From positions 39,206 to 103,205 of the forward strand of contig MGDH01000010.1 of assembly GCA_001790855.1 (NCBI GenBank): 64,000 bases of DNA, given 5' to 3'. Of this stretch, positions 5,216 to 47,555 are shown piece after piece. The notes under the pieces were generated by a model that was given only the letters and a program-made list of their open reading frames with translations, ran no database searches and was not told the DNA's origin. Positions within the stretch are counted from its first letter, which is position 1, and every line of letters starts with the position of its first letter. The stretch comes from Candidatus Schekmanbacteria bacterium RIFCSPLOWO2_02_FULL_38_14. GTDB lineage: Bacteria > Schekmanbacteria > GWA2-38-11. The position numbers were made by a program, and so were the translations under genes.

Positions 5216-6745
5216 ATGCTTTCCCGGGTACTAAGCTGCGCCACAATCGGGATTGATGCATATATTGTCGAAGTTGAAGTAGACATTGCCCTCGGGCTTC
5301 CAACCTTCTCAACTGTCGGGCTTCCTGATGCTGCTGTAAAGGAGAGCAAGGACAGGGTAAAGGCAGCAATAGTCAATACCGGTTTTGAGTTTCCTGTAAG
5401 AAGAATAACAGTCAACCTCGCCCCTGCTGACATTAAGAAAGAGGGACCTATCTTTGACCTTCCAATTGCAATAGGAATAATTGCCGCACAGGGCTTAATT
5501 GATGAAGGTGTCCTTAAAGACTATGTAATCCTTGGTGAGCTCTCTCTTGACGGAACTATCAGGACAATCAAGGGCGCACTTCCAATGGCTGTTGCAGCGC
5601 GGGATTCCGGAAAAAAAGGGATTATCCTGCCAAAAGAAAACTGCGATGAGGCAGCAGTTGTAAATGGAGTAAAAGTATATCCTATTTCCTCACTTCCGGA
5701 AGCAGTAGAATTTTTAAATGGAAGGCTTGAACTCTTGCCTGTGAAGATAGATTTAGAAAAAATCTTTGAAAACAACTCGAGACACAGGACCGACTTTACT
5801 GATGTTAAGGGACAGGAGCACGCAAAAAGAGCCTTAGAGGTTGCAGCCGCAGGAGGGCACAACATCATAATGATAGGCTCTCCTGGCTCAGGAAAAACAA
5901 TGCTTGCAAAACGCCTGCCAACAATCCTTCCTGATATGACCTTTGAAGAAGCAATTGAGACAACAAAGATCCATTCTGTAGTGGGACTGCTTGAAAAAAG
6001 CCAGGCAATGGTTGGAACAAGACCATTCCGTTCCCCACACCACACGATTTCAGATGCAGGGCTGATAGGCGGAGGTGCAATTCCAATGCCCGGTGAAGTA
6101 AGCCTATCGCACAACGGGGTGCTGTTTCTTGATGAGTTGCCTGAATTTAAGAGAAATGTCCTTGAGGTAATGCGCCAGCCTTTAGAGGACGGCAGAGTTA
6201 CAATCTCAAGGGCATCTGCATCACTCACATTTCCGGCGCGCTTTATGCTTGCTGCTGCTATGAACCCCTGCCCCTGCGGTTTTAAATTTGATACAAAGAA
6301 AGAATGTACCTGCTCACCGGGGCAGATTCACAAATATCACGCTAAAATATCAGGACCGCTTCTTGACCGCATTGACATCCACATAGAGATACCGGCTTTA
6401 AAATATAAAGAGCTTTCCTCAGATTCAGCAGGCGAGCCGTCAAAAGTAATCCGTGGAAGAATTAACTCTGCAAGAAAGGTCCAGCAGGAGCGTTTCAAAG
6501 GGGACGGGATTTTCTGCAATGCCCACATGTCGCCTAAGCAGATAAAAAAATTCTGTGCCATTGATGAAGCAGGGCAAAAGCTCCTTGAAACAGCAATCAA
6601 CAGATTCGCCCTCTCAGCGCGCGCCTATGACCGCATCTTAAAGGTCTCGCGGACAATTGCGGACTTGGAAGAAACTCTCAATATTAAGCCTGAGCATCTC
6701 TCAGAGGCTATCCAGTACAGAAGTTTGGACAGGGGAACGGGATGA
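5216..6745 (+). CDS. comM: YifB/ComM-type Mg-chelatase-like AAA+ ATPase
   Basis: A 509-residue protein of normal ComM length. Residues 1-170 form the Lon-protease-like S5 domain (GLPTFSTVGLPDAAVKESKDRVKAA). The AAA+ Mg-chelatase domain follows, with Walker A GSPGSGKTML near 222, Walker B GVLFLDELPEF near 302 and the cysteine cluster NPCPCGF..CTCSPGQ. The Mg-chelatase C-terminal domain has SARAYDRILKVSRTIADL. ComM-type helicases promote branch migration during natural transformation. The ATG has an AGAGGAG ribosome site. A terminator is not obvious downstream. Confidence 0.93.
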   Translation: MLSRVLSCATIGIDAYIVEVEVDIALGLPTFSTVGLPDAAVKESKDRVKAAIVNTGFEFPVRRITVNLAPADIKKEGPIFDLPIAIGIIAAQGLIDEGVLKDYVILGELSLDGTIRTIKGALPMAVAARDSGKKGIILPKENCDEAAVVNGVKVYPISSLPEAVEFLNGRLELLPVKIDLEKIFENNSRHRTDFTDVKGQEHAKRALEVAAAGGHNIIMIGSPGSGKTMLAKRLPTILPDMTFEEAIETTKIHSVVGLLEKSQAMVGTRPFRSPHHTISDAGLIGGGAIPMPGEVSLSHNGVLFLDELPEFKRNVLEVMRQPLEDGRVTISRASASLTFPARFMLAAAMNPCPCGFKFDTKKECTCSPGQIHKYHAKISGPLLDRIDIHIEIPALKYKELSSDSAGEPSKVIRGRINSARKVQQERFKGDGIFCNAHMSPKQIKKFCAIDEAGQKLLETAINRFALSARAYDRILKVSRTIADLEETLNIKPEHLSEAIQYRSLDRGTG

Positions 6746-6893: not shown

Positions 6894-8240
6894 ATGAACA
6901 GCGATAACAAGTTTAATAAATTAAAGATGTTATTTGTTCAGCCATCCCATCTGAAAGAGGATGGGACTGTGTGGAAAAGTAAATTGCCCTGGCTCCCAAG
7001 GCTTGCTTTGCCTCAACTTGCAGCAATTACTCCTGATGACTTTGAAACAACTATTGTAGATGAATATATTGAAGATATTGACTTTAACGCGGATGTTGAT
7101 TCTGTTGCTATAACAGCAACTACTGTGCAGGCTCCAAGGGCTTATCAGATCGCAAAAGAATTTATAAAGAGGGGCAAAAAAACTATAATGGGAGGTATAC
7201 ACGCCTCTCTGCTTCCGGAAGAATCTCAAAAGCACGTTGATAGTGTCGTCATTGGAGAAGCAGAAGGGGTATGGGAAGAGGTCTTAGCTGATCTAAAGCA
7301 TAGAAATTTAAAACCTGTATATCTCAGCAGAGGGCACATGGATATAACACACATTCCTTCTCCTAAACTATCTAAACTTCCACTTCATAAATATAAGGTA
7401 GACTTCAAGCTGGTACAAACGACAAGAGGATGCCCGCATAATTGCGGGTACTGTTCAGTAACTAAATTTTTTGGAAGCACTTACAGGCACAGATCAATAG
7501 AGGATGTTGTTAGAGAGCTTGAGGAAATTGCATCTGAAGATATATTTTTTGTGGATGATAACATTGCAGCAAATCCTGAGAGGGCAAAAGCATTGTTTAA
7601 AGCTATTACTCCATTAAAAAAAAGCTGGATATCCCAATGTTGTATGCATATTGCCTATAATGAAGAACTTTTGGAACTGGCAAGAGAAAGTGGCTGTGTA
7701 AACCTGATGATAGGCTTTGAAAGTCTGTCAGAGGGAAGTTTAAAATCTGTGAATAAATCCTTTAACAAGGTAGATGATTATTTTTATGTGGCAGAAAAGC
7801 TCCACAGCAAGGGAATCAGCGTAATGGGATTGATGGTATTTGGATTTGATTATGCTGATGAAACCATTTTTGAAAAAACAGTCAAATTTATGGATGATGC
7901 AAAGATTGATTTCCCCTGTTATTGGGTATTGACTCCTTACCCTAAAACTCCTCTTTACCAGCAATTAGAATCAGAAGGAAGAATTTTTGAGAGGGACTGG
8001 TCTAAATACGACTGTACCCACGTTGTATTTAAGCCTAAACTGATGACTTCAGAAGTTTTAGAAAATGGATATTATTATGCTTGCAAAAGCTCCTATTCAG
8101 TAAATAGCATTATAAAGAGGCTTACGCCATCATCATTAAGGATGGCAAAATCCTTGATAGACGGCTTTCCCGCAAGGGCAATGGTAACATATCTTTTCAG
8201 GCAGGGCGCATTAAAGGGCTATCATCCTATGATGGGTTAG
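6894..8240 (+). CDS. B12-binding-domain radical SAM protein
   Basis: A 448-residue class-B-like radical SAM enzyme. Residues 1-150 form a Rossmann-like B12-binding domain (KMLFVQPSH, SVAITATTVQAPRAYQIAKE, GGIHASLLPEE) without an obvious DXHXXG histidine motif, so any cobalamin is probably bound base-off without His. The cluster TRGCPHNCGYCSVTKFFG lies near residue 180, followed by FVDDNIAANPERAK, MIGFESLSE and VMGLMVFGFD, as in the BchE/HpnP/HpnR-like superfamily. The substrate is not predictable. No biosynthetic gene is adjacent. It converges on the DAHP synthase gene with a 21-bp gap. Confidence 0.85.
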   Translation: MNSDNKFNKLKMLFVQPSHLKEDGTVWKSKLPWLPRLALPQLAAITPDDFETTIVDEYIEDIDFNADVDSVAITATTVQAPRAYQIAKEFIKRGKKTIMGGIHASLLPEESQKHVDSVVIGEAEGVWEEVLADLKHRNLKPVYLSRGHMDITHIPSPKLSKLPLHKYKVDFKLVQTTRGCPHNCGYCSVTKFFGSTYRHRSIEDVVRELEEIASEDIFFVDDNIAANPERAKALFKAITPLKKSWISQCCMHIAYNEELLELARESGCVNLMIGFESLSEGSLKSVNKSFNKVDDYFYVAEKLHSKGISVMGLMVFGFDYADETIFEKTVKFMDDAKIDFPCYWVLTPYPKTPLYQQLESEGRIFERDWSKYDCTHVVFKPKLMTSEVLENGYYYACKSSYSVNSIIKRLTPSSLRMAKSLIDGFPARAMVTYLFRQGALKGYHPMMG

Positions 8241-10073: not shown

Positions 10074-10955
10074 ATGGATTGGGAACCACAAGCGAAAGAA
10101 GTTGTTGATATGATACCGGTGCCGGAAATCATAAAAAATATGACTATCCTTTATGCTGAAAAGCTTGCAAGAGCAAAAAAACGTTCTAAGGTAACCATGG
10201 AAGATGTGGACAAGACAAGAGATGATTACTTTGAAATGTTAGGGGACAGCTTCAAGGAAAGAATCTGCTGCGTCCGGACAGAAGGGAAAAAAGATGATGA
10301 TGTTGACCCTGAACTTGAGCTCAACAAAGGTCCCGCACTCTACAGGGTTGAGTTATGCCACCAGAGGTTTTTTGGATGTCCGCGCCAGATAATCGATGTC
10401 AAGGAAGTAGGAAAAGCAGTAAAGGAAAAACTTGAGGCAATAAAACTTACAGAGATAATTGCTGATAAGACGGATGAACCCTTTATGCCACACAATTTTT
10501 TTACTGTTTCAATCTCCTCCTGCCCTAATAACTGCACTTCTGCTGAGACAAAGGATTTTGGAATGCACGGAGTAATTGAACCAGAAGTTGACCAGGAAAC
10601 ATGTAACAAGTGCGGGAAATGCATTGAAGTATGCCCTGATGATGCAATCCTGTTCAAGCACGACAAACTGAAAATTAACAGACGTGCCTGTGTAATCTGC
10701 GGCGCATGTATTGAAGCCTGCCCTGTAAGCGCTATAAAGAACAAAAGACAGGGAGTTAGAGTTCTTGTCGGTGGAAGGTTTGGAAGATGGCATACAGATG
10801 CCAAAGAGCTTTTCAAGAATGAACCCCTTGGAACTGCTATGAAGGCTTTGGAAGCATCAGTTAACCTTATTAAGACTGAAGCAGGTCCTCACGAGCATCT
10901 TTATCATCTTGTCAACAGGATTGGACTTAAGCCTATTCACGACAGAATAATGTAA
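10074..10955 (+). CDS. PCP_red / NIR-SIR-like / 2x[4Fe-4S] fusion protein
   Basis: A 293-residue three-part redox protein. Residues 1-60 are a helical domain resembling the C-terminal PCP_red domain of light-independent protochlorophyllide reductase (EVVDMIPVPEIIKNMTILYAEKLARAK..VTMEDV). Residues 90-170 resemble a half nitrite/sulfite-reductase repeat with ELCHQRFFGCPRQ and SISSCPNNCTSAETKDFGMHG, the CX3C half of a siroheme/4Fe-4S site. Residues 175-225 are a bacterial ferredoxin with two full clusters (CNKCGKCIEVCP and CVICGACIEACP). It is much shorter than a DsrA or CysI. AGGAGG precedes the ATG. It is probably an electron-transfer or siroheme protein; substrate unknown. Confidence 0.75.
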   Translation: MDWEPQAKEVVDMIPVPEIIKNMTILYAEKLARAKKRSKVTMEDVDKTRDDYFEMLGDSFKERICCVRTEGKKDDDVDPELELNKGPALYRVELCHQRFFGCPRQIIDVKEVGKAVKEKLEAIKLTEIIADKTDEPFMPHNFFTVSISSCPNNCTSAETKDFGMHGVIEPEVDQETCNKCGKCIEVCPDDAILFKHDKLKINRRACVICGACIEACPVSAIKNKRQGVRVLVGGRFGRWHTDAKELFKNEPLGTAMKALEASVNLIKTEAGPHEHLYHLVNRIGLKPIHDRIM

Positions 10956-35609: not shown

Positions 35610-36755
35610 TTATAAGTTTCTTCGTCTTTTCTCACACAGAGGACATATATTCTCTGTTCCAACAAATTCGCCTTTGCAGCGATGGCATACTCTCTTCTTT
35701 AATCTAACAAGCTCAACCATTTTGTCTTCAGTCAGCTTTTTCATGCTTAGCCTTGGCTGTACTCCGATTGCCTTTACAAGACAAACATCCTGACAAAGCC
35801 TGCAGTTTGTGCATCTCTGCTCATTAAAATAAATCTTAATAAAGGCTTCATCAGAAATCCTGCTTATAGCTCCTGTTGGGCAGAGAACGTCGCAAACATT
35901 ACAACCCATGCAGTTTTCTCTGATAAAGGCTGTTGCAAAAGGAATAAAGGTATCAGGAGATAAAACTTTCTCTTCCTGATTAGAATCCTTTAAGAGACTC
36001 ACCAAATGCGGCCTTTTATGATTCTGGAATTTCCTGGTCTGCGCACCAGGTATTTCTTCCTTATTTTCAGATTTATACAGATTAGCCAGAGTATTAGTTG
36101 TCTCTAACATTACTTTGCTTTTTATTCTTTTAAAGAATTTTCTCCTGTCCAGATTCTCTTCTCTTTTAACCTTGCCCTCACCCTTCTTAAATTCAGAGAA
36201 CTCACCAAGGACCTGAATGCTATCTCCTTCTAACCCTAATGAATGAATAATAAAGATAGCTAATTGCCTTATCTCATGAAAAAGCGCCTTTCCCTTTTCA
36301 ATGCTACATCCTTTACAATCCGGAACCTTTATCTCTATTCTGCCTGACCTCTTTAAAACCAGATGGATGAGGATGTTTTCCGTAAGCCTTCCAACGCATT
36401 TTAAGGAAATTAAATCAACATTTTCCTCAATCCCTTTTTCACACGTAAACCTCACAACCCTTTCAGGATTATTCTTAAGAAAATCCTCTGCAATGGATAT
36501 TATTGAAAAATCGTTCTTGGTTTCAGAGTCAAAAACACCGTTCGGGCAGGCTGAAATGCAGCAACCGCATTCAATGCATTTATCATCTATAGAAATATTA
36601 TTTTCTATACTGATTGAGCCAGCCGGACAGAATTCAACGCATCTTCTGCATTTTGACTTGGGAGACCTTACAGTCGGGCAGAGTTCAGGAATGATAATTA
36701 TGTCCTTTCTCGTAAAACTCTCCAGCGCCTTATTAATTATTTTTGATTCAAGCAT
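35610..36755 (-). CDS. Polyferredoxin with MvhD-like middle domain
   Basis: A 381-residue cytoplasmic-type protein with two ferredoxin modules. The N-terminal one is CRRCVEFCPAGSI and CIECGCCISACPNGVF (residues 37-75). The C-terminal one is CMGCNVCDVLCPTGAI and CTNCRLCQDVCLVKAI (about 280-335), and a zinc-ribbon CHRCKGEF..CPLCEKR ends the protein. Residues 95-165 (VRFTCEKGIEENVDLISLKCVGRL..EIKVPDCKGCSIEKGK) resemble the MvhD/hydrogenase delta subunit 2Fe-2S region. It lies last in the molybdoenzyme operon and probably links it to cytoplasmic or membrane donors. Confidence 0.8.
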   Translation of the reverse strand: MLESKIINKALESFTRKDIIIIPELCPTVRSPKSKCRRCVEFCPAGSISIENNISIDDKCIECGCCISACPNGVFDSETKNDFSIISIAEDFLKNNPERVVRFTCEKGIEENVDLISLKCVGRLTENILIHLVLKRSGRIEIKVPDCKGCSIEKGKALFHEIRQLAIFIIHSLGLEGDSIQVLGEFSEFKKGEGKVKREENLDRRKFFKRIKSKVMLETTNTLANLYKSENKEEIPGAQTRKFQNHKRPHLVSLLKDSNQEEKVLSPDTFIPFATAFIRENCMGCNVCDVLCPTGAISRISDEAFIKIYFNEQRCTNCRLCQDVCLVKAIGVQPRLSMKKLTEDKMVELVRLKKRVCHRCKGEFVGTENICPLCEKRRRNL

Positions 36756-36803: not shown

Positions 36804-37487
36804 TCATCCTTTTATAAATGCACAATTTAATGTATTGCTATCAGAAAGGACAAAGTCAAGGGTGATTTTCGCAATGGCGAGATAAAAATTATTTTTTGTT
36901 TTTTCAAAAATTTTTTCACATAAATCTGGAAGCCAGCACAGAATGTGCTCTTTTAAGAACTTCTTTTCCATTTTCTGAAGGGAGGTTATAAGTTTAGGAT
37001 TATTTTCCTTATAAGCTTTTTCTTCTTCCTTGCAGAGAGTAGCCATAAAAGCAAGCTCTGTTCCGATATGGTCTGGAAGTTCATGGTATTCATTGGGAAT
37101 CTGAAATCCAAGTCTGGTATAAATTTTTTTAACATCAACCCCAGACTTTCCGCTCATACAACCATGGCGATACACTGATTCATAAGGGGTAACAAATTTC
37201 GAAAGAGGAACCTTAAACAAATCATGGTATTCCTGAACAAGGCTTCTAAAATCTTCGTTGTTTATATTTTCTAACTCAGAAATAAGTTGTTTTGTTCCAT
37301 TAGAAATAAAAGATGAATTTACCGAAAAGGCTGCAATCTCTCTTAAAGTTCCAAGGGTATCTGCAGTGGGAGTAGTCAAAAATAAAGAGGAAAGGAAAAA
37401 GTAAAAATTACTTCTCTCCCACGCTAAATTAATAAAATTTTCATTTCCCTTTTCCAACATAATTTTAAAAGTAGAAACCAACCCCAA
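36804..37487 (-). CDS. TorD/DmsD-family molybdoenzyme maturation chaperone
   Basis: A 227-residue all-helical TorD-like protein. Family features are the N-terminal AWERSNFYFFLSSLFLTTPTADTL, YHDLFKVPLSKFVTPYESVYRHG near residue 90, DHIGTELAFMATLCKEEEKAY and FLKEHILCWLPDLCEKIFEKTKNNFYLAIAKITLDFV. Such proteins bind the Tat leader and insert the molybdopterin cofactor before export. Its partner is clearly the Tat-leader catalytic subunit at 38134-41382. The C-terminal codons have a degraded copy near 46313-46357. Confidence 0.9.
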   Translation of the reverse strand: MGLVSTFKIMLEKGNENFINLAWERSNFYFFLSSLFLTTPTADTLGTLREIAAFSVNSSFISNGTKQLISELENINNEDFRSLVQEYHDLFKVPLSKFVTPYESVYRHGCMSGKSGVDVKKIYTRLGFQIPNEYHELPDHIGTELAFMATLCKEEEKAYKENNPKLITSLQKMEKKFLKEHILCWLPDLCEKIFEKTKNNFYLAIAKITLDFVLSDSNTLNCAFIKG

Positions 37488-37547: not shown

Positions 37548-38105
37548 TTACCACGCTGTAATCCAACCCCACTCAAATGTTACTGATGGATTTGTATAGC
37601 TTCTTGAAGAAAACTTCTCAGGAACAGTTCCTGTATTGCCAACGTCTTCACCAAAGCTAAGGGCTTTCCCAATGCAGGTATTAACGCATGCAGGCTTTAA
37701 ACCTGTAAGAGCACTTCCTGCACTGTTTAAAACCCTATGAGCGCAAAGCGAGCATTTCTCCATCTTCTTTGTGCTCCCATTAAACCTTGGAGCCCCATAG
37801 GGACACACCGTTGCGCAATACTTGCATCCAATACATTTACTATCATCAATAAGCACAACTCCGAAATTTGCATCCTTGCTTATTGCTTCAACAGGGCAAG
37901 ATTTCAGGCACGCAGGCTCTTCACAATGAAAGCATGACATTGTCACAAAAAGCCTTTTTGGCTCTGTTTCTGTCCCTCCCTGCTTTTCAATAACTGCTCT
38001 ATATCTTGTTCCTTTTACAGTATTTAACTCAGCATTGCAAGCTACAGCACAAGCTCTGCATCCAGCACATTTAGCAAGATTTATTGTAAAACCTAACTGG
38101 CTCAT
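37548..38105 (-). CDS. 4Fe-4S electron-transfer subunit (DmsB/TtrB/NrfC type)
   Basis: A 185-residue four-cluster ferredoxin. Cluster motifs in order are CAGCRACAVAC near residue 14, CFHCEEPACLKSC near 59, CIGCKYCATVCPYG near 91 and CSLCAHRVLN..CVNTC near 118. This is the canonical electron-transfer partner of molybdopterin oxidoreductases. No Tat leader of its own is seen, so it is presumably co-exported with the catalytic subunit. It lies 28 bp after that gene. Confidence 0.93.
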   Translation of the reverse strand: MSQLGFTINLAKCAGCRACAVACNAELNTVKGTRYRAVIEKQGGTETEPKRLFVTMSCFHCEEPACLKSCPVEAISKDANFGVVLIDDSKCIGCKYCATVCPYGAPRFNGSTKKMEKCSLCAHRVLNSAGSALTGLKPACVNTCIGKALSFGEDVGNTGTVPEKFSSRSYTNPSVTFEWGWITAW

Positions 38106-38133: not shown

Positions 38134-41100
38134 TTAACTTAAAACCTTTTCAACCTTAACTTTACTTATATAGAAACATGCCTGACCAGAAATCGGGTCT
38201 GTAAGGCATAGTTCAGGGAAATCGGGGTCTCCTCGCTGGACCAAATTGCCATTAGGACCTACACCGATTTTTGAGTCATAGGCTGAATCTACGCTATCAA
38301 CTTTATAAGGTTTTGAACCAAACCATTCTCTTCCAAAATGGTGGTCAATAACAACTGATTTTTGGCGAAGCCCATTTATTACTCTGACCTTGCCCTGTGT
38401 ACTCTGTCCATTGGATGAAGTTACTTTGACTATGTCACCTGTTCTTACTCCAAGACTTCCTGCATCTGTGGAGCTAAGATATATAAACCCTTCAGGCTGG
38501 AGTTCAAGGAGCCATTCATTGCTTGTTGACCTTGACTGAACTTGCCATGCTCTCTTATATGTGTTCAGAGTGTAGTCATATCCAGTAACTTCTTCAATTA
38601 AGGTTCCTTTAAGCCCAATATTCGGTTCTTCCCATTTCGGGATTCCTGAGTATTCTTCACCTGTCAACGCATTCTTTGCATGGGCAACCTTTTCTGAAAA
38701 GATGCTGATAAGGTCACCATATTTGTTTTTTATCCAGTCTGGTGCACTTGAATCTTCAATCTGAGCCGGATTCTCCCATCTACCAGCCATCTTCATATAT
38801 TCAGTACTACTATCTCCAGGTCCGCTGGTTTGACCTTCACTTCCTAAACCCGAAGAGAAATCCCCTGCTTTAAAGGCTTCATCCCAGAACGAATAGGCTG
38901 TATCAAGATGCTTACCTGTGCCTATTCCATCAGTCCCAAAATTTGGAAGGTCTAAAAGCTTTGCCATCTGAATCAACTGTTCATCATATGGCATAGGACC
39001 ATTCCATGCATCAAGAAGAGCTGAAATATCACTGAAAGAGCTTCCAGTTAATTCTGCATCAGCAGGGATATAAATCCACGCAGTTCTATCTCCTATTGTA
39101 ATCTGTTTATATGAGCCGATTACAGGTCTTCTAATTGTGCCAGCCTTTGTTTTTAATGTTGGATAACTTGTAAATGGAGTTGAATACCTCTCAAGATAGG
39201 TGCTGTCAGGAAGGATATAATCTGAAAGCGCTGCAGTCTCATCCATAAAGATTGTGCAGGAGACTACAAGAGGAATAACATAGCTTGAACCATCCTTCTT
39301 CGTCAGAGCATCCCTTACTCCCTGGCTATTTGGTTGAGTATAAGCAGGGTTAAAGCAATAAAGCATCAGTGCCTTATATTTGTAAGGATAACTTACTGCC
39401 ATGCTCGGGATTGCTTCCTGGCTTATTACACTTGCGAGATAATACCACTGCCTTGTTGGTGTGGGTTCAGTTCCCTCATATTTTGAACCTGCTCTGTCAA
39501 CCCTTACACCACTTGTAAGACCGCTTGAAACAGCTCTTGAAGGCTCTTTTCCTCCAAACCTTGGACCTGTGCAATAACCCCCAACTTTATCTACTCTGCC
39601 AATGATGGTATTGAGAATGTTTATAGCTCTTGAAGTCTGATATCCATTTGGATGCCCCCAGGCACCTCTATAAGCTTCTAAACAAGTCTTTTTGCTGCTA
39701 TCGGATAAATCGCTTGCCAAAGTCTGAATAGTAGTTCCACTCACATCACAAAGGCTTGCCCATTCTGAAAGTTCCTTACTCATCACCTCATCTTTTAACA
39801 GCTTAAAAGCTGTGGAATAATTAAGACTATTTTTTGTTCCAGAGGATTCAAGTTTTGCAGTATCAGCAGAAGTATATGGCACAATTGAACCATCGCTTTT
39901 TTCCACAGTAAAGGCAATTGATGCAATAGCTCCGCTACTTGCTGAAGCAGCCTTTGTGTTGAAGCTTCCCCTTGTGCAACCGCTTGCAGAGGTTCCAAGC
40001 GTTTTATTTGTATCATCCTTTGCCGGATAATAGATTACCTCATCACCAATTTTTATAAAACCCTTTGAAGGAAAGGTACTTGTGTCCGCAACAGGAATAA
40101 CTTTGTCAGAGGATGTTATAGCTGAAGAAAGGGTTGTTACTCCTTCTGTTAAACCTGCAGCAGAAGCAGTCAGAAATTCCTCGCCTTTACCACTCGCAGT
40201 TTCTACCAGAAATGTTGCATCAGTATAGTTTTTATATCCTGCTGTGCTTGCCGCTGATTCATTTGGAATGGAAAGATAAGCACTCAAGTGCTTGTTGTTT
40301 TCTATTATCCATCTTATCATTCCCATGACAAGAGCAAGGTCTGTGCCGGGTTTTATTGGAACCCACTGGTCAGCTTTTGAGGCAGTATGCGTGAAAAATG
40401 GGTCAACCACAACGATTTTGCCACCATTTGCCTTCATTGCCATCAGTTTTCTTGCCCAGAAAGGAGTCCCCACATTTGCCTCAAGTGGATTTGTTCCTAA
40501 GAGAATTAGATATTCCACATTGTCAAGGTCAACCCTCATGTACTTATAAGAAGCTTTTTTAGGACCGGTAAATGTTGTTTTAGTTGGCACAGCATAATTG
40601 GTATTGCACAAAGAGCTATGCTCAATATGATTTACTGTCCCAAAGGATTCATTAAATCTTTTTGTTATCTGGGAAATCTGGTCCCTTCCTCTTATCCAGA
40701 CATATTGATTTGCCTTAAAGCCGAAGTTTGAAGCATCGCCTGATTTTGCTTCATTTGCATAGTCAGTATCAGAAGATGTCAGTTTTTCTGAAACACGCTT
40801 TGATGAATCAGGAGTGCCTCTTATAGCAGACAATCCTATAAAAGAGCCTTCAGGAAGAGTCCCCCCATTGATTATCTCATTAAATGCCTGCTTCCATGAG
40901 ATAGCCTGCCATTTTTCTTCACCCCTTGCACCTGTCCTTTTCAAAGGAGTTTTAACCCTGTAAGGGTCATAAAGGGTCTTTATTCCTGCATTGCCACGAC
41001 CACAAGGCGTACCTGAATTTTTATCAGGTTCTGAAATATCTGTTAGAGCTGCCTCTGTGCCTGCTGTTGAATAATCATTTGTATGCGGACAGAAGGGATT

Positions 41101-41382
41101 CCCTTCGATCTTCTGTACGATGCCACTGCTGTCAATTTTAACCTGAATGCCGCATCCTGCATTGCACATCATGCAGGCAGTACGGATTACTTTTACACCT
41201 GTATCGCCTACATTTGGGTCAGGGTCATTTAAGGCATAGAGGTTTTTCAACTCAAAACCTGAAAGAGCTGCTGTTGTGCCTGCAACAACACTGCTTACCT
41301 TAAGAAATGTTCTTCTGGAAACCTTAGCCTTGTTTCCAAAACCTGTATTTTTTATTTTTTTAAACGAGTTTTTTGTGTTCAT
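38134..41382 (-). CDS. Tat-exported molybdopterin oxidoreductase catalytic subunit (Ttr/Arr/Psr branch)
   Basis: A 1082-residue bis-PGD enzyme. Tat leader: KVSRRTFLKVSSVVAG (residues 20-35). The 4Fe-4S site is ACMMCNAGC near 69 with the fourth Cys in GTPCGRGNAG near 127. EHSSLCNTNYA supplies the probable Mo-ligand Cys near residue 258. LILLGTNPLEANVGTPFW, PIKPGTDLALVMGMIRWI and the C-terminal HHFGREWFG..LTDPISGQACFY fit the tetrathionate, arsenate and polysulfide reductase branch. Residues about 410-500 are a foreign-looking insert (TTLSSAITSSDKVIPVADTS, FIKIGDEVIYYPA, SGCTRGSFNTKAA). The substrate is inferred to be an S, As or Se compound, not proven. Confidence 0.9.
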   Translation of the reverse strand: MNTKNSFKKIKNTGFGNKAKVSRRTFLKVSSVVAGTTAALSGFELKNLYALNDPDPNVGDTGVKVIRTACMMCNAGCGIQVKIDSSGIVQKIEGNPFCPHTNDYSTAGTEAALTDISEPDKNSGTPCGRGNAGIKTLYDPYRVKTPLKRTGARGEEKWQAISWKQAFNEIINGGTLPEGSFIGLSAIRGTPDSSKRVSEKLTSSDTDYANEAKSGDASNFGFKANQYVWIRGRDQISQITKRFNESFGTVNHIEHSSLCNTNYAVPTKTTFTGPKKASYKYMRVDLDNVEYLILLGTNPLEANVGTPFWARKLMAMKANGGKIVVVDPFFTHTASKADQWVPIKPGTDLALVMGMIRWIIENNKHLSAYLSIPNESAASTAGYKNYTDATFLVETASGKGEEFLTASAAGLTEGVTTLSSAITSSDKVIPVADTSTFPSKGFIKIGDEVIYYPAKDDTNKTLGTSASGCTRGSFNTKAASASSGAIASIAFTVEKSDGSIVPYTSADTAKLESSGTKNSLNYSTAFKLLKDEVMSKELSEWASLCDVSGTTIQTLASDLSDSSKKTCLEAYRGAWGHPNGYQTSRAINILNTIIGRVDKVGGYCTGPRFGGKEPSRAVSSGLTSGVRVDRAGSKYEGTEPTPTRQWYYLASVISQEAIPSMAVSYPYKYKALMLYCFNPAYTQPNSQGVRDALTKKDGSSYVIPLVVSCTIFMDETAALSDYILPDSTYLERYSTPFTSYPTLKTKAGTIRRPVIGSYKQITIGDRTAWIYIPADAELTGSSFSDISALLDAWNGPMPYDEQLIQMAKLLDLPNFGTDGIGTGKHLDTAYSFWDEAFKAGDFSSGLGSEGQTSGPGDSSTEYMKMAGRWENPAQIEDSSAPDWIKNKYGDLISIFSEKVAHAKNALTGEEYSGIPKWEEPNIGLKGTLIEEVTGYDYTLNTYKRAWQVQSRSTSNEWLLELQPEGFIYLSSTDAGSLGVRTGDIVKVTSSNGQSTQGKVRVINGLRQKSVVIDHHFGREWFGSKPYKVDSVDSAYDSKIGVGPNGNLVQRGDPDFPELCLTDPISGQACFYISKVKVEKVLS

Positions 41383-41394
41383 TCTCCCCTCCTT

Positions 41395-42099
41395 TTATTC
41401 TTTATAAAATTCTTTACCTATACTTCCTGGAGCATGGCATGGATAGCATATTGCAACATCAACATTTTTTCTTAAACTCCCGGCAGAACGTTCCACAATA
41501 TCTGTATTCTTGTGGCAGTACAGGCATTTCGCATCATTAGTTTTCCCGGGAATAATGGAAAGTTTTAGTATTTTAAGGACATGGAATGTATCAATTGAAG
41601 AATTCAAGCTTGTTTCTTTCAGAATACCCTTATGACATGAAGCATTTGTGCAATCTGTTCTATATTGGCTTGAATTCTTGTCATGGATGGGGATGGGATT
41701 GCCGGTAAAAGGCACAGGCTCCTCGCAGTCATTTATGCATTTCTGAACCTTTAATCCCTTTAACTTCTTTGCTTTTTTCCCATTAGTATTTTCAACTATT
41801 ATGGTTCTGTAACCAATCTTTGCATCAAGGGCTACTTCAACCTGCACCTTTATTTCTCTACTTTTCACTGTTGTTGAGAGTACAGTAATCCCTTGACCCA
41901 AATTTACCTCTGCATTCTGTTTAAACCCACTACCCTTTATGGTAATTGTTTTTGTATCGTTTTGCTTTATAAGCTTTGGCACTATTGCTGTTACTTTAAT
42001 TTTTGATATTGCAGCAAAAGCACTTATAGGTATTATAAATACCCCAATCATTATGAATAAAATCAAAAACCGAAATTTTCTCATATACCCCCCTTTCAA
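41395..42099 (-). CDS. Exported cytochrome c-type protein with IPT-like domain
   Basis: A 234-residue secreted protein. The signal peptide is RKFRFLILFIMIGVFIIPISAFA. Residues 30-120 form an IPT/TIG-like fold (KVTAIVPKLIKQNDTKTITIKGSGF, GQGITVLSTTVKSREIKV). The C-terminal part holds heme-binding motifs CTNASCH (CX4CH), CLYCH and CYPCH, so up to three c-type hemes. It lies 12 bp before the molybdoenzyme gene and is the first gene after the sigma-54 promoter. It is the likely periplasmic electron carrier for the enzyme. Confidence 0.85.
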   Translation of the reverse strand: MKGGYMRKFRFLILFIMIGVFIIPISAFAAISKIKVTAIVPKLIKQNDTKTITIKGSGFKQNAEVNLGQGITVLSTTVKSREIKVQVEVALDAKIGYRTIIVENTNGKKAKKLKGLKVQKCINDCEEPVPFTGNPIPIHDKNSSQYRTDCTNASCHKGILKETSLNSSIDTFHVLKILKLSIIPGKTNDAKCLYCHKNTDIVERSAGSLRKNVDVAICYPCHAPGSIGKEFYKE

Positions 42100-42414: not shown

Positions 42415-43815
42415 TTAAGTTTCCGTATTTCCGTCACCAACATCATTCTCAAGCCCGTATTTATTTACTTTATCGCAGAATGTCGACCTCTTCATTTTTA
42501 AAAGCTGCGCGCCAATAGTTTTATTCCCTTTGCTCTCATTTAAAGCCCATGCTATCAATTCTTTTTCTGCCTGTTCCATTATTTCATTAAATACCCTGTT
42601 ATCAGGATGAAGTTTTGTAACATCAACAAAAGAACCTGTATACTGAAAATAATCTATTCTTTTCTTTACCATATCTGCTGTTAGCATATCTCCTTTCATT
42701 ACTGTAACCATCTGCTCAACTATATTTTCAAGCTCTCTCACATTTCCGGGCCAATAGTAAGAAATTAACTCCTGCATAGCTTCAGGCTCTATTTTTGGAA
42801 TCTCTTTTGCCTCGCGTTTGCAGAATTTTTTCAGGAAATAATCAAACAATAGCGCAATATCCTCACTCCTCTCCCTTAAAGGCGGCAATTCTATGTTCAC
42901 AACATTAATCCTGTAATAAAGGTCCTTGCGGAACTCTCCATTTCTGACTTTTTCTAATAAGTTCTCTTTTGTTGCTGCTATTACTCGTATATCAACCTTG
43001 ATAGGATTTGTTCCTCCTACTCTTTCAAATTCTCTCTCCTGCAAAACCCTTAATAGCTTAACCTGTATTGAAAGAGGCAGGTCATCAATGTCATCAAAAA
43101 AAATTGTTCCTCCATTAGCGAGCTCAAACCTGCCAGGTTTTCTGCCTATTGCACCAGTAAATGAACCTTTTTCATGGCCAAAAAGCTCAGATTCAAGAAG
43201 GTTCTCATTAAACACAGCACAGTTAACCTTTATCAAAGGGTTATTTCTTCTTTTGCTGTTATAATGAATTGCATTGGCAACCAGTTCTTTTCCTGTTCCG
43301 CTTTCACCCTGAACCAGAACAGTGCTCTGGGTATTTGCAATACATGAAATTAACTCATAGATTTCTCTCATTATTTTGCTTTTCCCGACAATATTGCAGC
43401 ATTCGTATTTTTCAAACAGCTTTTCCTTAAGCTCAAGGTTTTCAGATTTTAACCTTTGAAATTCTTCAATCCGCTTAAACATCAGCAAAAGTTCATCAAG
43501 CTCAAAGGGTTTGGTAATGTAATCATAAGCCCCCTGCTTCATAGCCTCTACGGCTGTCTCCACAGTTGCATAAGCGGTCATCATTATTACAACAGCCTCA
43601 GAATCGATTTTCTTTATCTCTTTTAAAAATTCTATTCCATCCATCTCTGGCATTTTTAAGTCAGTTATTACTATATCAGGGTTTTCTTTCTTAAACCTGT
43701 CAAATCCTTCTATTGCATTTTCACAGGAAATGACTTCATATCCATTCTTTGACAGAAAATCAGTAACAGTAACTCTTTTTATAGGTTCATCATCTGCAAC
43801 CAAAATCTTTTTCAT
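42415..43815 (-). CDS. Sigma-54-dependent response regulator of the XSR-type system
   Basis: A 466-residue regulator: receiver domain with phospho-Asp in DIVITDLKMPEMD near residue 54, AAA+ domain with GESGTGKE, the sigma-54 loop as GSFTGA (variant of GAFTGA), GTIFFDDIDDLP and GNVRELEN, and a Fis-type HTH (NKTIGAQLLKMKRSTFCDKVNKYGL). The Walker B reads FDD rather than the usual LDE. It lies 15 bp after its kinase and just upstream of the sigma-54 promoter at 42193-42208, which it probably activates. Confidence 0.93.
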   Translation of the reverse strand: MKKILVADDEPIKRVTVTDFLSKNGYEVISCENAIEGFDRFKKENPDIVITDLKMPEMDGIEFLKEIKKIDSEAVVIMMTAYATVETAVEAMKQGAYDYITKPFELDELLLMFKRIEEFQRLKSENLELKEKLFEKYECCNIVGKSKIMREIYELISCIANTQSTVLVQGESGTGKELVANAIHYNSKRRNNPLIKVNCAVFNENLLESELFGHEKGSFTGAIGRKPGRFELANGGTIFFDDIDDLPLSIQVKLLRVLQEREFERVGGTNPIKVDIRVIAATKENLLEKVRNGEFRKDLYYRINVVNIELPPLRERSEDIALLFDYFLKKFCKREAKEIPKIEPEAMQELISYYWPGNVRELENIVEQMVTVMKGDMLTADMVKKRIDYFQYTGSFVDVTKLHPDNRVFNEIMEQAEKELIAWALNESKGNKTIGAQLLKMKRSTFCDKVNKYGLENDVGDGNTET

Positions 43816-43830
43816 ATAAGTCCCTTAATA

Positions 43831-45303
43831 TTATCTAATCAAAGGCAGTGATACCTTAAATGTGCTGCCGACTCCTTCTTTGCTTTCAGCCTCTATTTTC
43901 CCTTTATGCTTTTCTACAATCCCCAGACTTACTGAAAGCCCAAGCCCTGTTCCTTTACCCTGTTCCTTTGTTGTAAAAAACGGGTCGAAAATTTTATTCA
44001 AATTATTTTTAGATATCCCACTTCCATTATCTGAAACCTTAATGTTAACAAAACCATTTTCTCTCTCAGTAGATACTTTGACTACTCCACTGCCATCTAC
44101 TGCATCAAGACTATTCATAATCAGGTTTATTAAAACTTGCTGGAGTTGATATTTATTGCCAAATACTTTTGTAATCTCCTTACAAAACTCTTTTTTGAAA
44201 ACTATCTTCTTTTTCTCAATTCTGTAATTCACAAGGGAAAGAGAACTTTCTGCTATTTCATTGACATCAACCTCTTCCATCTCATAGGTCCTGTCCTTTG
44301 AAAAATCAAGAAGCTCGCGAACAATAAGCTCTATTCTCTTCAGCCCGTCCATTATCAGCTTTATGTACTTGCTGGTTTGTTCCCTGTTATCTGGTTCTTT
44401 TAAAATCATCTGGAAACAATCCTTAATTCCGTCAAGTGGATTGTTTATCTCATGAGCAACTCCTGCTGCAAGCCTGCCAATTGAGGCAAGCTTTTCTGAT
44501 TGAATAATCTGGGACTGTGCCTTTTCCAGGTCTTTTTTAGCCTGTCGTAACCTGTCAATCATTTTATTGAACTTCTCACCCAGCAGTCCTATTTCATCCC
44601 TGTTTTTTATTTCAATCTCAGGATGAGATAAATCAGAAGATATTTTGTCCATGGCATCTGAAAGCTTTGAAATCGGCTCTGTTAATCTTTTGGCAAGAAC
44701 CCAAGTAATTATAACAGAAACAAATATGAATCCAAGTGCAACAAGTATTATTTCAATGTAGAGTTTTATTAAAAATGGCTTCATAAATTCCATTGAAAAT
44801 CCAACCCTCAATGTTCCCCATTTCTTTGTTGAAATAGCAAGCGGAGTTGCCACATCAAGGATTTTAATTTTTTTTATTGGGTCATAATAATATTGCTTCA
44901 ATGTCTTTTTTGCTGAAGTCGCTTTTAAACTTACAGAGTCATTGTATATCCTGCCATATTTTTTATAATCATTATGAGCAATAATTCTGTTATCCTTATC
45001 AAGAATCATAGCATAGACTACATGAAGCTTTTTATTTTTCATTATCTGCAAAATATAATTGTCAAGCAAGCCTCCTTCTTCAATCAACCCCAATTCCTGA
45101 TATAAAAGTGTATTTGTGCAGGAAACCCCAAGGGCTTCTACCAGAGTAATGCCATTCTGTTCAGCTTTATCAATTAAAAGCCTTTCTTCCTGATTTTTCT
45201 CTACATATCCCACAACAATCATCAGCACTATTATTAGAGTAGTTGTATAAGCAATATACCTTCTTTTAAGACTCCATCTTATCTCTTTTAAACCTCTTTT
45301 CAT
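43831..45303 (-). CDS. Membrane sensor histidine kinase
   Basis: A kinase of about 490 residues. The ATG at 45303 overlaps the TGA of the upstream gene as ATGA, with AGAGG before it; a start at 45324 would overlap by 25 bp. Two membrane helices (YIAYTTTLIIVLMIVVGYVE and IEIILVALGFIFVSVIITWVLA) flank a periplasmic domain of about 135 residues. HAMP, then H-box AAGVAHEINNPLDGIKDCF, N-box LINLIMNSLDAV, and G boxes SDNGSGI and GKGTGLGLSVS follow. Together with the periplasmic protein at 45300-46259 it should sense a ligand outside the membrane. Confidence 0.93.
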   Translation of the reverse strand: MKRGLKEIRWSLKRRYIAYTTTLIIVLMIVVGYVEKNQEERLLIDKAEQNGITLVEALGVSCTNTLLYQELGLIEEGGLLDNYILQIMKNKKLHVVYAMILDKDNRIIAHNDYKKYGRIYNDSVSLKATSAKKTLKQYYYDPIKKIKILDVATPLAISTKKWGTLRVGFSMEFMKPFLIKLYIEIILVALGFIFVSVIITWVLAKRLTEPISKLSDAMDKISSDLSHPEIEIKNRDEIGLLGEKFNKMIDRLRQAKKDLEKAQSQIIQSEKLASIGRLAAGVAHEINNPLDGIKDCFQMILKEPDNREQTSKYIKLIMDGLKRIELIVRELLDFSKDRTYEMEEVDVNEIAESSLSLVNYRIEKKKIVFKKEFCKEITKVFGNKYQLQQVLINLIMNSLDAVDGSGVVKVSTERENGFVNIKVSDNGSGISKNNLNKIFDPFFTTKEQGKGTGLGLSVSLGIVEKHKGKIEAESKEGVGSTFKVSLPLIR

Positions 45304-46259
45304 CCTTTTGGTCCTCTGTGGCATGTTTTTCCGCAGACTTTTGGGATATCCAGGATAAGTTCTTTAATACGTTCATAGTCATCATCATGAGCCTCTATAA
45401 AACCATATCTGAATTCCTCATCCCAGTTCTTCATAATTTCCCAATCCAAAGGATTTTTCGGATTAAGCTTCAGGAGGACTTTTTTAACAGCTTCAACCAT
45501 TTTAGGGTCAGCATCCTTCCTTACTGTAATAGGGACACTTGGAATCGGGTCAGATTGAGCTAAAAATCTTAAACCTCTTGGTTTGTATTTTAAGGCAACA
45601 ACATCTTTTACTGCGCCAGCATCATACTCACCTTTAAGAACTGCCTGCGCCACAGCATCATGGTGCCTTAAATTTATATAGGATTTCAAATCTTCAAGCT
45701 TTATTCCATGATTAAAGAGCAAATAGCGCGGGATTAAATTCCCAGATGTTGATTTGATTGAAGCAAAGGCAAAACTTTTTCCTTTAAGGTCATTCAACGA
45801 ATATATATTGTTGTCCTCTTTTGTTATAATTATGCTTCTATAGAAAATATCTCCACTGCTTGTTCTTGGACGCAGGATACTCTTGGCATTGAATTTCAGG
45901 TTGCAATCAATAAAAGTCACTCCACCAAGGGATGCAATATCAGTCACTCCGTAATGAAGGTCATCCTCTGTCTCATTGTATGTTGAACCGAGCTTAAGCT
46001 CAAATTTATATGGTGTGCTTGCAGTCAAATAATCCATAATTGGCTGGTAATTTTCATACATTACCATTGGATTATATCTGGAAATCACTCCAAACTTTAT
46101 AACCTCTTTTTTGGGTTCCTCATTTTTAGGCAGTGAAACTACCTTTTTGTTTGCATCAATATCCACCTTTTCGCGCTTACATGAACTTGGAGCTAATAGA
46201 ATCGTTAATGGCAGGAATAAAAGAAAAACAAATATTAAAAACCTTCTCTTTGCTCTCAT
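45300..46259 (-). CDS. PhnD-like periplasmic oxyanion-binding lipoprotein
   Basis: A 319-residue periplasmic binding protein. The leader FLIFVFLLFLPLTILLAPSSC ends in a lipobox-like APSSC, so it is probably a lipoprotein. The body matches the PhnD (phosphonate/phosphite) family: FGVISRYNPMVMYENYQPIMDYL, LHYGVTDIASLGGVTFID, DLKGKSFAFASIKSTSGNLIPRYLL and LKGEYDAGAVKDVVALKY. No ABC transporter genes are near. AioX, ArxX and ArrX, which sense arsenic oxyanions for a kinase, have this form. The C-terminus carries CGKTCHRG (CX3CH). Confidence 0.88.
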   Translation of the reverse strand: MRAKRRFLIFVFLLFLPLTILLAPSSCKREKVDIDANKKVVSLPKNEEPKKEVIKFGVISRYNPMVMYENYQPIMDYLTASTPYKFELKLGSTYNETEDDLHYGVTDIASLGGVTFIDCNLKFNAKSILRPRTSSGDIFYRSIIITKEDNNIYSLNDLKGKSFAFASIKSTSGNLIPRYLLFNHGIKLEDLKSYINLRHHDAVAQAVLKGEYDAGAVKDVVALKYKPRGLRFLAQSDPIPSVPITVRKDADPKMVEAVKKVLLKLNPKNPLDWEIMKNWDEEFRYGFIEAHDDDYERIKELILDIPKVCGKTCHRGPKG

Positions 46260-47258: not shown

Positions 47259-47555
47259 ATGCTTTTATTTGAATGGGATCTGAACAAGGCAAGAAAAAAT
47301 ATAAAAACTCACGGCGTATCTTTTGATGAGGCAAGCACAGCTTTCAAAGACACCTTATCATTAACTATTTACGACCCTCTGCATTCTGATAAAGAAGACA
47401 GGTTTATTTTAATTGGGAATTCCTGTGAAAATCGCCTTCTGGTAGTTGTTCACACAGAAAGAGGAGATAAAATCAGGATAATAAGCGCAAGAAAAACAAC
47501 AAGAAATGAAAGGAAACAATATGAAGAGAATGCGAAAAGATCCAGACATGCTTGA
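47259..47555 (+). CDS. brnT: BrnT-family ribonuclease toxin
   Basis: A 98-residue BrnT toxin: FEWDLNKARKNIKTHGVSFDEASTAFKDTLSLTIYDP, EDRFILIGNSCENRLLVVVHTERGDKIRIISARKTTRNERKQYEE. This is the RelE-like fold seen in BrnT, with the conserved WD..KA..N..KHGV start (here KTHGV) and the IISAR..T..ER..Y end. As in other brn loci, the toxin gene comes first. It starts 24 bp after the -10. Confidence 0.93.
   Translation: MLLFEWDLNKARKNIKTHGVSFDEASTAFKDTLSLTIYDPLHSDKEDRFILIGNSCENRLLVVVHTERGDKIRIISARKTTRNERKQYEENAKRSRHA

Follow-up and report, generated by a model that had tools for sequence, protein, structure and literature searches.

A phage-type beta-barrel module within the catalytic subunit of a TtrA-like molybdoenzyme

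Phage-type domains are familiar in bacterial surface proteins; in the literature that we searched, we found no precedent for one that lies within a bis-MGD respiratory catalytic subunit and is fixed in an enzyme clade across distant lineages. The nearest solved relatives of the enzyme described here, the thiosulfate/polysulfide reductase catalytic subunit 2vpw and ArrA 6cz7 (E 3e-70 and 7e-58, respectively, for an enzyme family profile searched against the PDB), have a short loop and no module at the insertion site. Among named families, TtrA (NF011567) is the best match to the enzyme outside the module. On the phage side, the paper on JBD30 describes domain VI of the tail hub as a small beta-barrel of six strands that makes contact with domain VII and lends stability to the baseplate (PMC11445458), and oligosaccharide-binding insertion domains are present in phage tails (PMC7296036; PMC11445458).

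The DNA analysed here, referred to as the window, is a stretch of 64,000 nucleotides from contig MGDH01000010.1 of Candidatus Schekmanbacteria bacterium RIFCSPLOWO2_02_FULL_38_14. Loci and genomes compared with it carry L and G numbers.

The catalytic subunit and its operon

The enzyme and its neighbours are encoded in the window as follows:

35610..36755, minus strand: polyferredoxin of the operon, 381 residues (four Fer4 stretches)
36804..37487, minus strand: TorD/DmsD-type chaperone (PF02613, 1e-28; TorD model, 8e-19)
37548..38105, minus strand: ferredoxin-type electron-transfer subunit, DmsB/TtrB-like (Fer4_11, 3.6e-25; TIGR02951 DmsB, 137.6 bits, below the cut-off)
38134..41382, minus strand: catalytic subunit, a Tat-exported, distantly TtrA-like bis-MGD molybdoenzyme of 1,082 residues (Pfam and NF011567)
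41395..42099, minus strand: TIG-domain di-haem c-type cytochrome, directly upstream (TIG and Qn_am_d_aIII in Pfam; two CxxCH)
42415..43815, minus strand: NtrC-type response regulator (Sigma54_activat, 1.7e-71)
43831..45324, minus strand: histidine kinase with HAMP and a Cache-type sensor (Pfam)
45300..46259, minus strand: PhnD-like periplasmic binding protein (Phosphonate-bd, 1.7e-61)

The catalytic subunit has a twin-arginine (RR) motif at its N terminus and exceeds the Pfam cut-offs for PF00384 Molybdopterin (93.2 bits against 24, E 2e-26), PF01568 Molydop_binding (48 against 26.8, E 1.5e-12) and PF04879 Molybdop_Fe4S4 (25.7 against 22.7, E 1e-5). C70, C73, C77 and C127, for the N-terminal [4Fe-4S] cluster, and C259 are invariant in the enzyme alignment, and C259, at the metal-ligand position, aligns with the Cys of the ArrA motif HSSVC. 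By both its domains and its cysteines, the protein is a bis-MGD enzyme of the DMSO reductase family. All named reductase families lie far under their cut-offs. We rejected identity with TtrA on its score (313.2 bits, against a curated NF011567 cut-off of 1750) and the lack of an NrfD-type anchor in the operon, and identity with ArrA on its score (NF041714, 105.7 bits against 1600); in the genome search the TtrA model reached 175 bits, with none of the five genomes over the NF011567 cut-off.

Homologues of the polyferredoxin adjoin the enzyme in L007, L120 and L138, and homologues of the NtrC-type regulator in L143, L007, L120 and L139. The PhnD-like protein, the kinase and the regulator precede the operon in both the window and L143, as do the kinase and regulator in L007; the trio (window 42415-46259) is possibly a sensor system for the enzyme's electron acceptor. 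A cytochrome homologue is encoded upstream of the enzyme in L003-L006 and L009, and in the Myxococcales locus L007 a haem protein (6946-7983) bears c7-type haem sites on a collagen-like (GxxGxx) lipoprotein stalk, not a TIG domain; of the seven operons with the module, six thus pair the haem protein with a TIG domain and one with a collagen-like stalk. No NrfD homologue was found between 33 and 48 kb of the window, nor beside the enzyme in the other module carriers, L138 or L120; an NrfD anchor was found in L139 and L142 and lies beside the outgroup enzymes L021, L022 and L024. L138 (genome G617), a relative without the module, has an upstream cytochrome with four CxxCH motifs (5391-6347) and no NrfD nearby, which makes it a helpful case to compare when docking is considered. 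Since this module-less relative also has a multi-haem cytochrome, the cytochrome partner predates the module or is independent of it, and a strict link between the two is ruled out.

Elsewhere in the window, 47259-47555 encodes a BrnT-type ribonuclease toxin of a type II toxin–antitoxin pair (Pfam, 1.2e-29), and a 293-residue open reading frame at 10074-10955 has two ferredoxin-like Cys clusters and by eye resembles a sulfite-reductase-type protein.

Boundaries, sequence kinship and fold of the insert

The insert is the following feature:

39919..40143, minus strand: inserted phage-type beta-barrel module, residues 414-488 of the catalytic subunit, 75 residues (PHROG, viral profile, AF2 and fold matches)

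Homology to 2vpw is interrupted from residue 364 to residue 521 of the enzyme, an interval that 2vpw covers with its residues 273-281. Alignment to relatives limits the foreign part to residues 414-488 and places the insertion point in the loop between the conserved stretches ...A-x-x-GL and [FYW]xV....

The initial annotation had read residues of about 410-500 (39880-40150, an interval that encloses the module) as a foreign beta-type module in a bis-PGD enzyme and had proposed a profile search of the segment alone. That search bears the reading out, as does the predicted fold described below: a 106-residue segment matched the phage structural families phrog_2885 (baseplate wedge, E 4.6e-9) and phrog_4406 (virion structural, E 2e-8), with further matches to phrog_7578, phrog_11439 (tail fibre) and others, and to no Pfam family. 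A tblastn search with the module matched 210 phage records (best E 2e-6), chiefly of Synechococcus and Prochlorococcus phages, where the matched genes mostly encode baseplate wedge or virion structural proteins; in a scan of IMG/VR, module relatives were encoded in 246 stretches. The best sequence matches, at about 40-45% identity, are the cyanophage baseplate wedge (gp7-type, phrog_2885) and phrog_4406. In the cyanophages, the module is part of very large virion proteins and lies close to their N terminus (at residue 69 of 1456 in L033), and the literature that we consulted gives no role for it in these wedge and structural proteins.

A viral-only profile, made from 31 viral copies and no enzyme sequence, gave 71.3 bits on the window enzyme, 62-70 bits on the module-bearing orthologues and at best 7.4 bits on 2000 shuffles of the module, and no score at all on the relatives judged to lack it; it is not wholly independent because the viral copies had been gathered by searching with the enzyme module, whereas the PHROG models are independent. 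Seven residues are invariant across the aligned viral and enzyme copies (G441, K444, I445, G446, E448, Y452 and R471), in a shared pattern G-x-x-K-I-G-x-E-x-x-x-Y ... R-G-x-x-x-T; the conserved residues look structural rather than like a binding site. Rcc01698_C (PF23666), the C-terminal part of the RcGTA megatron, was rejected as a family name: it matched 7 of 37 module relatives weakly (best E 0.004), and with a gathering threshold of 27 bits it gave no match to the window module at E ≤ 1.

Modelled alone, the module is predicted to be a compact all-beta domain (AF2 pLDDT 96.4). The top three Foldseek matches in the PDB are phage tail or virion chains (probability 1.0, TM 0.72-0.75, E 0.02-0.06), from the JBD30 baseplate (8rk3_b, TM 0.75), Vibrio phage VP1 and the portal-tail of Ralstonia phage GP4, and among the predicted viral structures of BFVD there were 52 matches below 1e-3, with TM values up to 0.92. 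From its length (727 versus 735 residues), 8rk3_b is most likely the hub protein gp53, and sequence position suggests that the matched part is domain VI. Residues 488-556 of gp53 carry the module's E...RG..T...H..GA pattern, at 519-553. The profile-profile match between gp53 and the module family is marginal and direct sequence likeness very weak, and the hub link consists of the fold match (E 0.02) together with this weak similarity. The planctomycete copy in L151 matches phrog_1101, the gp53 family, in the part that corresponds. We call the module hub-barrel-like because of the JBD30 fold match, the gp53 pattern and the phrog_1101 link through L151. Direct sequence matches to solved structures, to a short tail fibre at E 0.003 and 0.45 with two profiles, were set aside as chance-like. 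The likeness to fibre repeats that had first been proposed therefore stands in part: the sequence kinship with phage tails is real, but the closest proteins are baseplate wedge, adaptor, nozzle and hub proteins, and the module is closer to a mobile tail-hub or adaptor barrel than to a classical fibre repeat. A full-length AF2 prediction of the enzyme (six sequences) had a pLDDT of 33.5, too low for use; we infer a surface position for the module because loop length at the insertion site varies among relatives.

Distribution and conservation of the module

Seven carriers are known, the window enzyme and six orthologues. Five orthologues come from planctomycete-type genomes (L003-L006 and L009, 74-75% identity) and one from a Myxococcales MAG (L007, 46%), all with the module at the same site; no sampled member of the clade lacks it, and a search of 284 Myxococcota and 294 planctomycete-phylum genomes returned no further close orthologues. 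Seven relatives, with 34-40% identity across the matched part, have no module: L016 of G328 and six in the class of G006, in five of which the best matches to the window protein stop at residues 411-413. The contig of G002 carries only the C-terminal part of a relative, which is assigned to neither group. Four outgroups, namely TtrA-like enzymes of Pseudomonas and Azospirillum, one archaeal and one from Citrobacter, have a short loop. In a tree calculated with the module columns removed, the carriers form one clade (support 99), with the module-less L016 as their sister (support 100) and L132 next. Because the carriers lie in one clade, a single gain explains the distribution; on these sequences the module was gained once and is an old trait of one enzyme clade, neither recent nor one-off. 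A recent phage origin of the enzyme's copy was rejected on the age of the trait and a base composition like that of the gene.

The explanation that we favour, with moderate confidence, is an old and retained phage-type contact domain that arose by a single insertion into a TtrA-like reductase. A self-contained beta-barrel of phage type would have entered a length-tolerant loop of a Cys-ligated enzyme in one event of domain shuffling, in the ancestor shared by the planctomycete-type and Myxococcales copies and within the branch of sampled NrfD-less operons.

Module and remainder of the protein are similarly conserved (67-77% versus 74-76% identity; 42% versus 46% for L007). In pairs whose dS is usable, the module has a dN/dS of 0.05-0.25, and its rate of amino-acid-changing substitution falls at the 59th-99th percentile of equal-sized windows of the gene. 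The module thus evolves under purifying selection; constraint on it is somewhat relaxed, which would be expected if the domain is exposed. A neutral insertion, in which the barrel sits in a permissive surface loop, has no specific task and persists on account of its good folding, would account for the variable loop length, for the module's tendency to evolve somewhat faster than the enzyme does on average and for conserved residues that look like fold residues. We nevertheless regard it as unlikely, if still worth weighing: the module is intact in all seven known clade members across distant lineages, at 42-77% identity and close to the rest of the protein, its dN/dS is well below 1, and it has been lost in no sampled member.

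Other hosts, possible role and known systems

Among viral hosts, the module occurs in SU10-type head-tail adaptors, nozzle-like proteins (phrog_3287), tail proteins (phrog_376) and baseplate wedges, and prophage-like tail proteins also carry it (L148). Lipobox-bearing proteins of about 1045 residues have module-like repeats near the C terminus, both in the window's own genome, G000 (contigs C16, loci L002/L116, and C37, L115), and in G003 of the same order (C3, L117). In a planctomycete hydrolase-like family (L119, L151 and L153, from G590, G633 and G634), which constitutes a second enzyme-like host, the module is inserted after a ...TPVPDPRL motif; the body of L119 matched no Pfam or PDB family. 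The enzyme's copy may have come from a phage or from a cellular source.

These lipoproteins and the hydrolase-like family, like the oligosaccharide-binding insertion domains of phage tails (PMC7296036; PMC11445458), lend some weight to the idea that the module binds a glycan or the envelope and tethers the enzyme to the cell surface or S-layer. We consider this doubtful, as the best solved match is apparently the hub's structural barrel and not a named oligosaccharide-binding domain, the alignment has no prominent conserved cluster of surface aromatic or acidic residues, and the Tat signal predicts a periplasmic location, not one outside. That the segment is an ordinary feature of the reductase family with a superficial phage likeness, as its conserved position in all close orthologues might suggest, is very improbable: it is absent from seven relatives and four outgroups, and its PHROG, fold and viral-profile matches are strong, so that this reading, which the initial annotation had named as the one that would overturn its proposal, is already refuted. 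An assembly chimera or misread frame deserves practically no credence and is likewise refuted, for although the named copies come from MAG contigs, seven independent assemblies have the same junctions with the frame open throughout, and the GC content of the module resembles that of the gene (42.7% versus 41.4%).

If the module is an old, retained contact domain, as we favour, the barrel would be exposed and without redox chemistry, offering a rigid surface that would brace the enzyme or let it dock to a periplasmic partner; the di-haem cytochrome encoded next to the enzyme would be the candidate for docking. We infer a contact role like that of the hub barrel, with the cytochrome as partner, and docking of the enzyme through the module is plausible. 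A bolder proposal, which we put forward as rather improbable, is that a tail-hub barrel was exapted as a docking domain: in place of the missing membrane anchor, it would bind the adjacently encoded di-haem cytochrome on its TIG or collagen-like stalk. If true, a part of virion assembly now wires the electron-transfer chain of a soluble respiratory reductase. The carrier and module-less clades make a clean pair of enzymes for measuring the effect of gaining one domain, and the finding draws attention to a mobile barrel, with two enzyme hosts, for which Pfam offers no well-fitting model.

Compared with known systems, the TtrA-like enzymes L021 and L024 share about 28-30% identity and the same Cys positions with the catalytic subunit, but L021 has an NrfD partner and no module, the opposite of the window enzyme on both counts. 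By sequence and fold, the insert is a phage tail or virion module, of a type that elsewhere occurs mostly in phage tails, yet its host here is an exported oxidoreductase of a respiratory operon rather than a virion protein. The JBD30 hub gp53 shares with it the small beta-barrel and the sequence pattern, and differs in being a virion protein of a phage.
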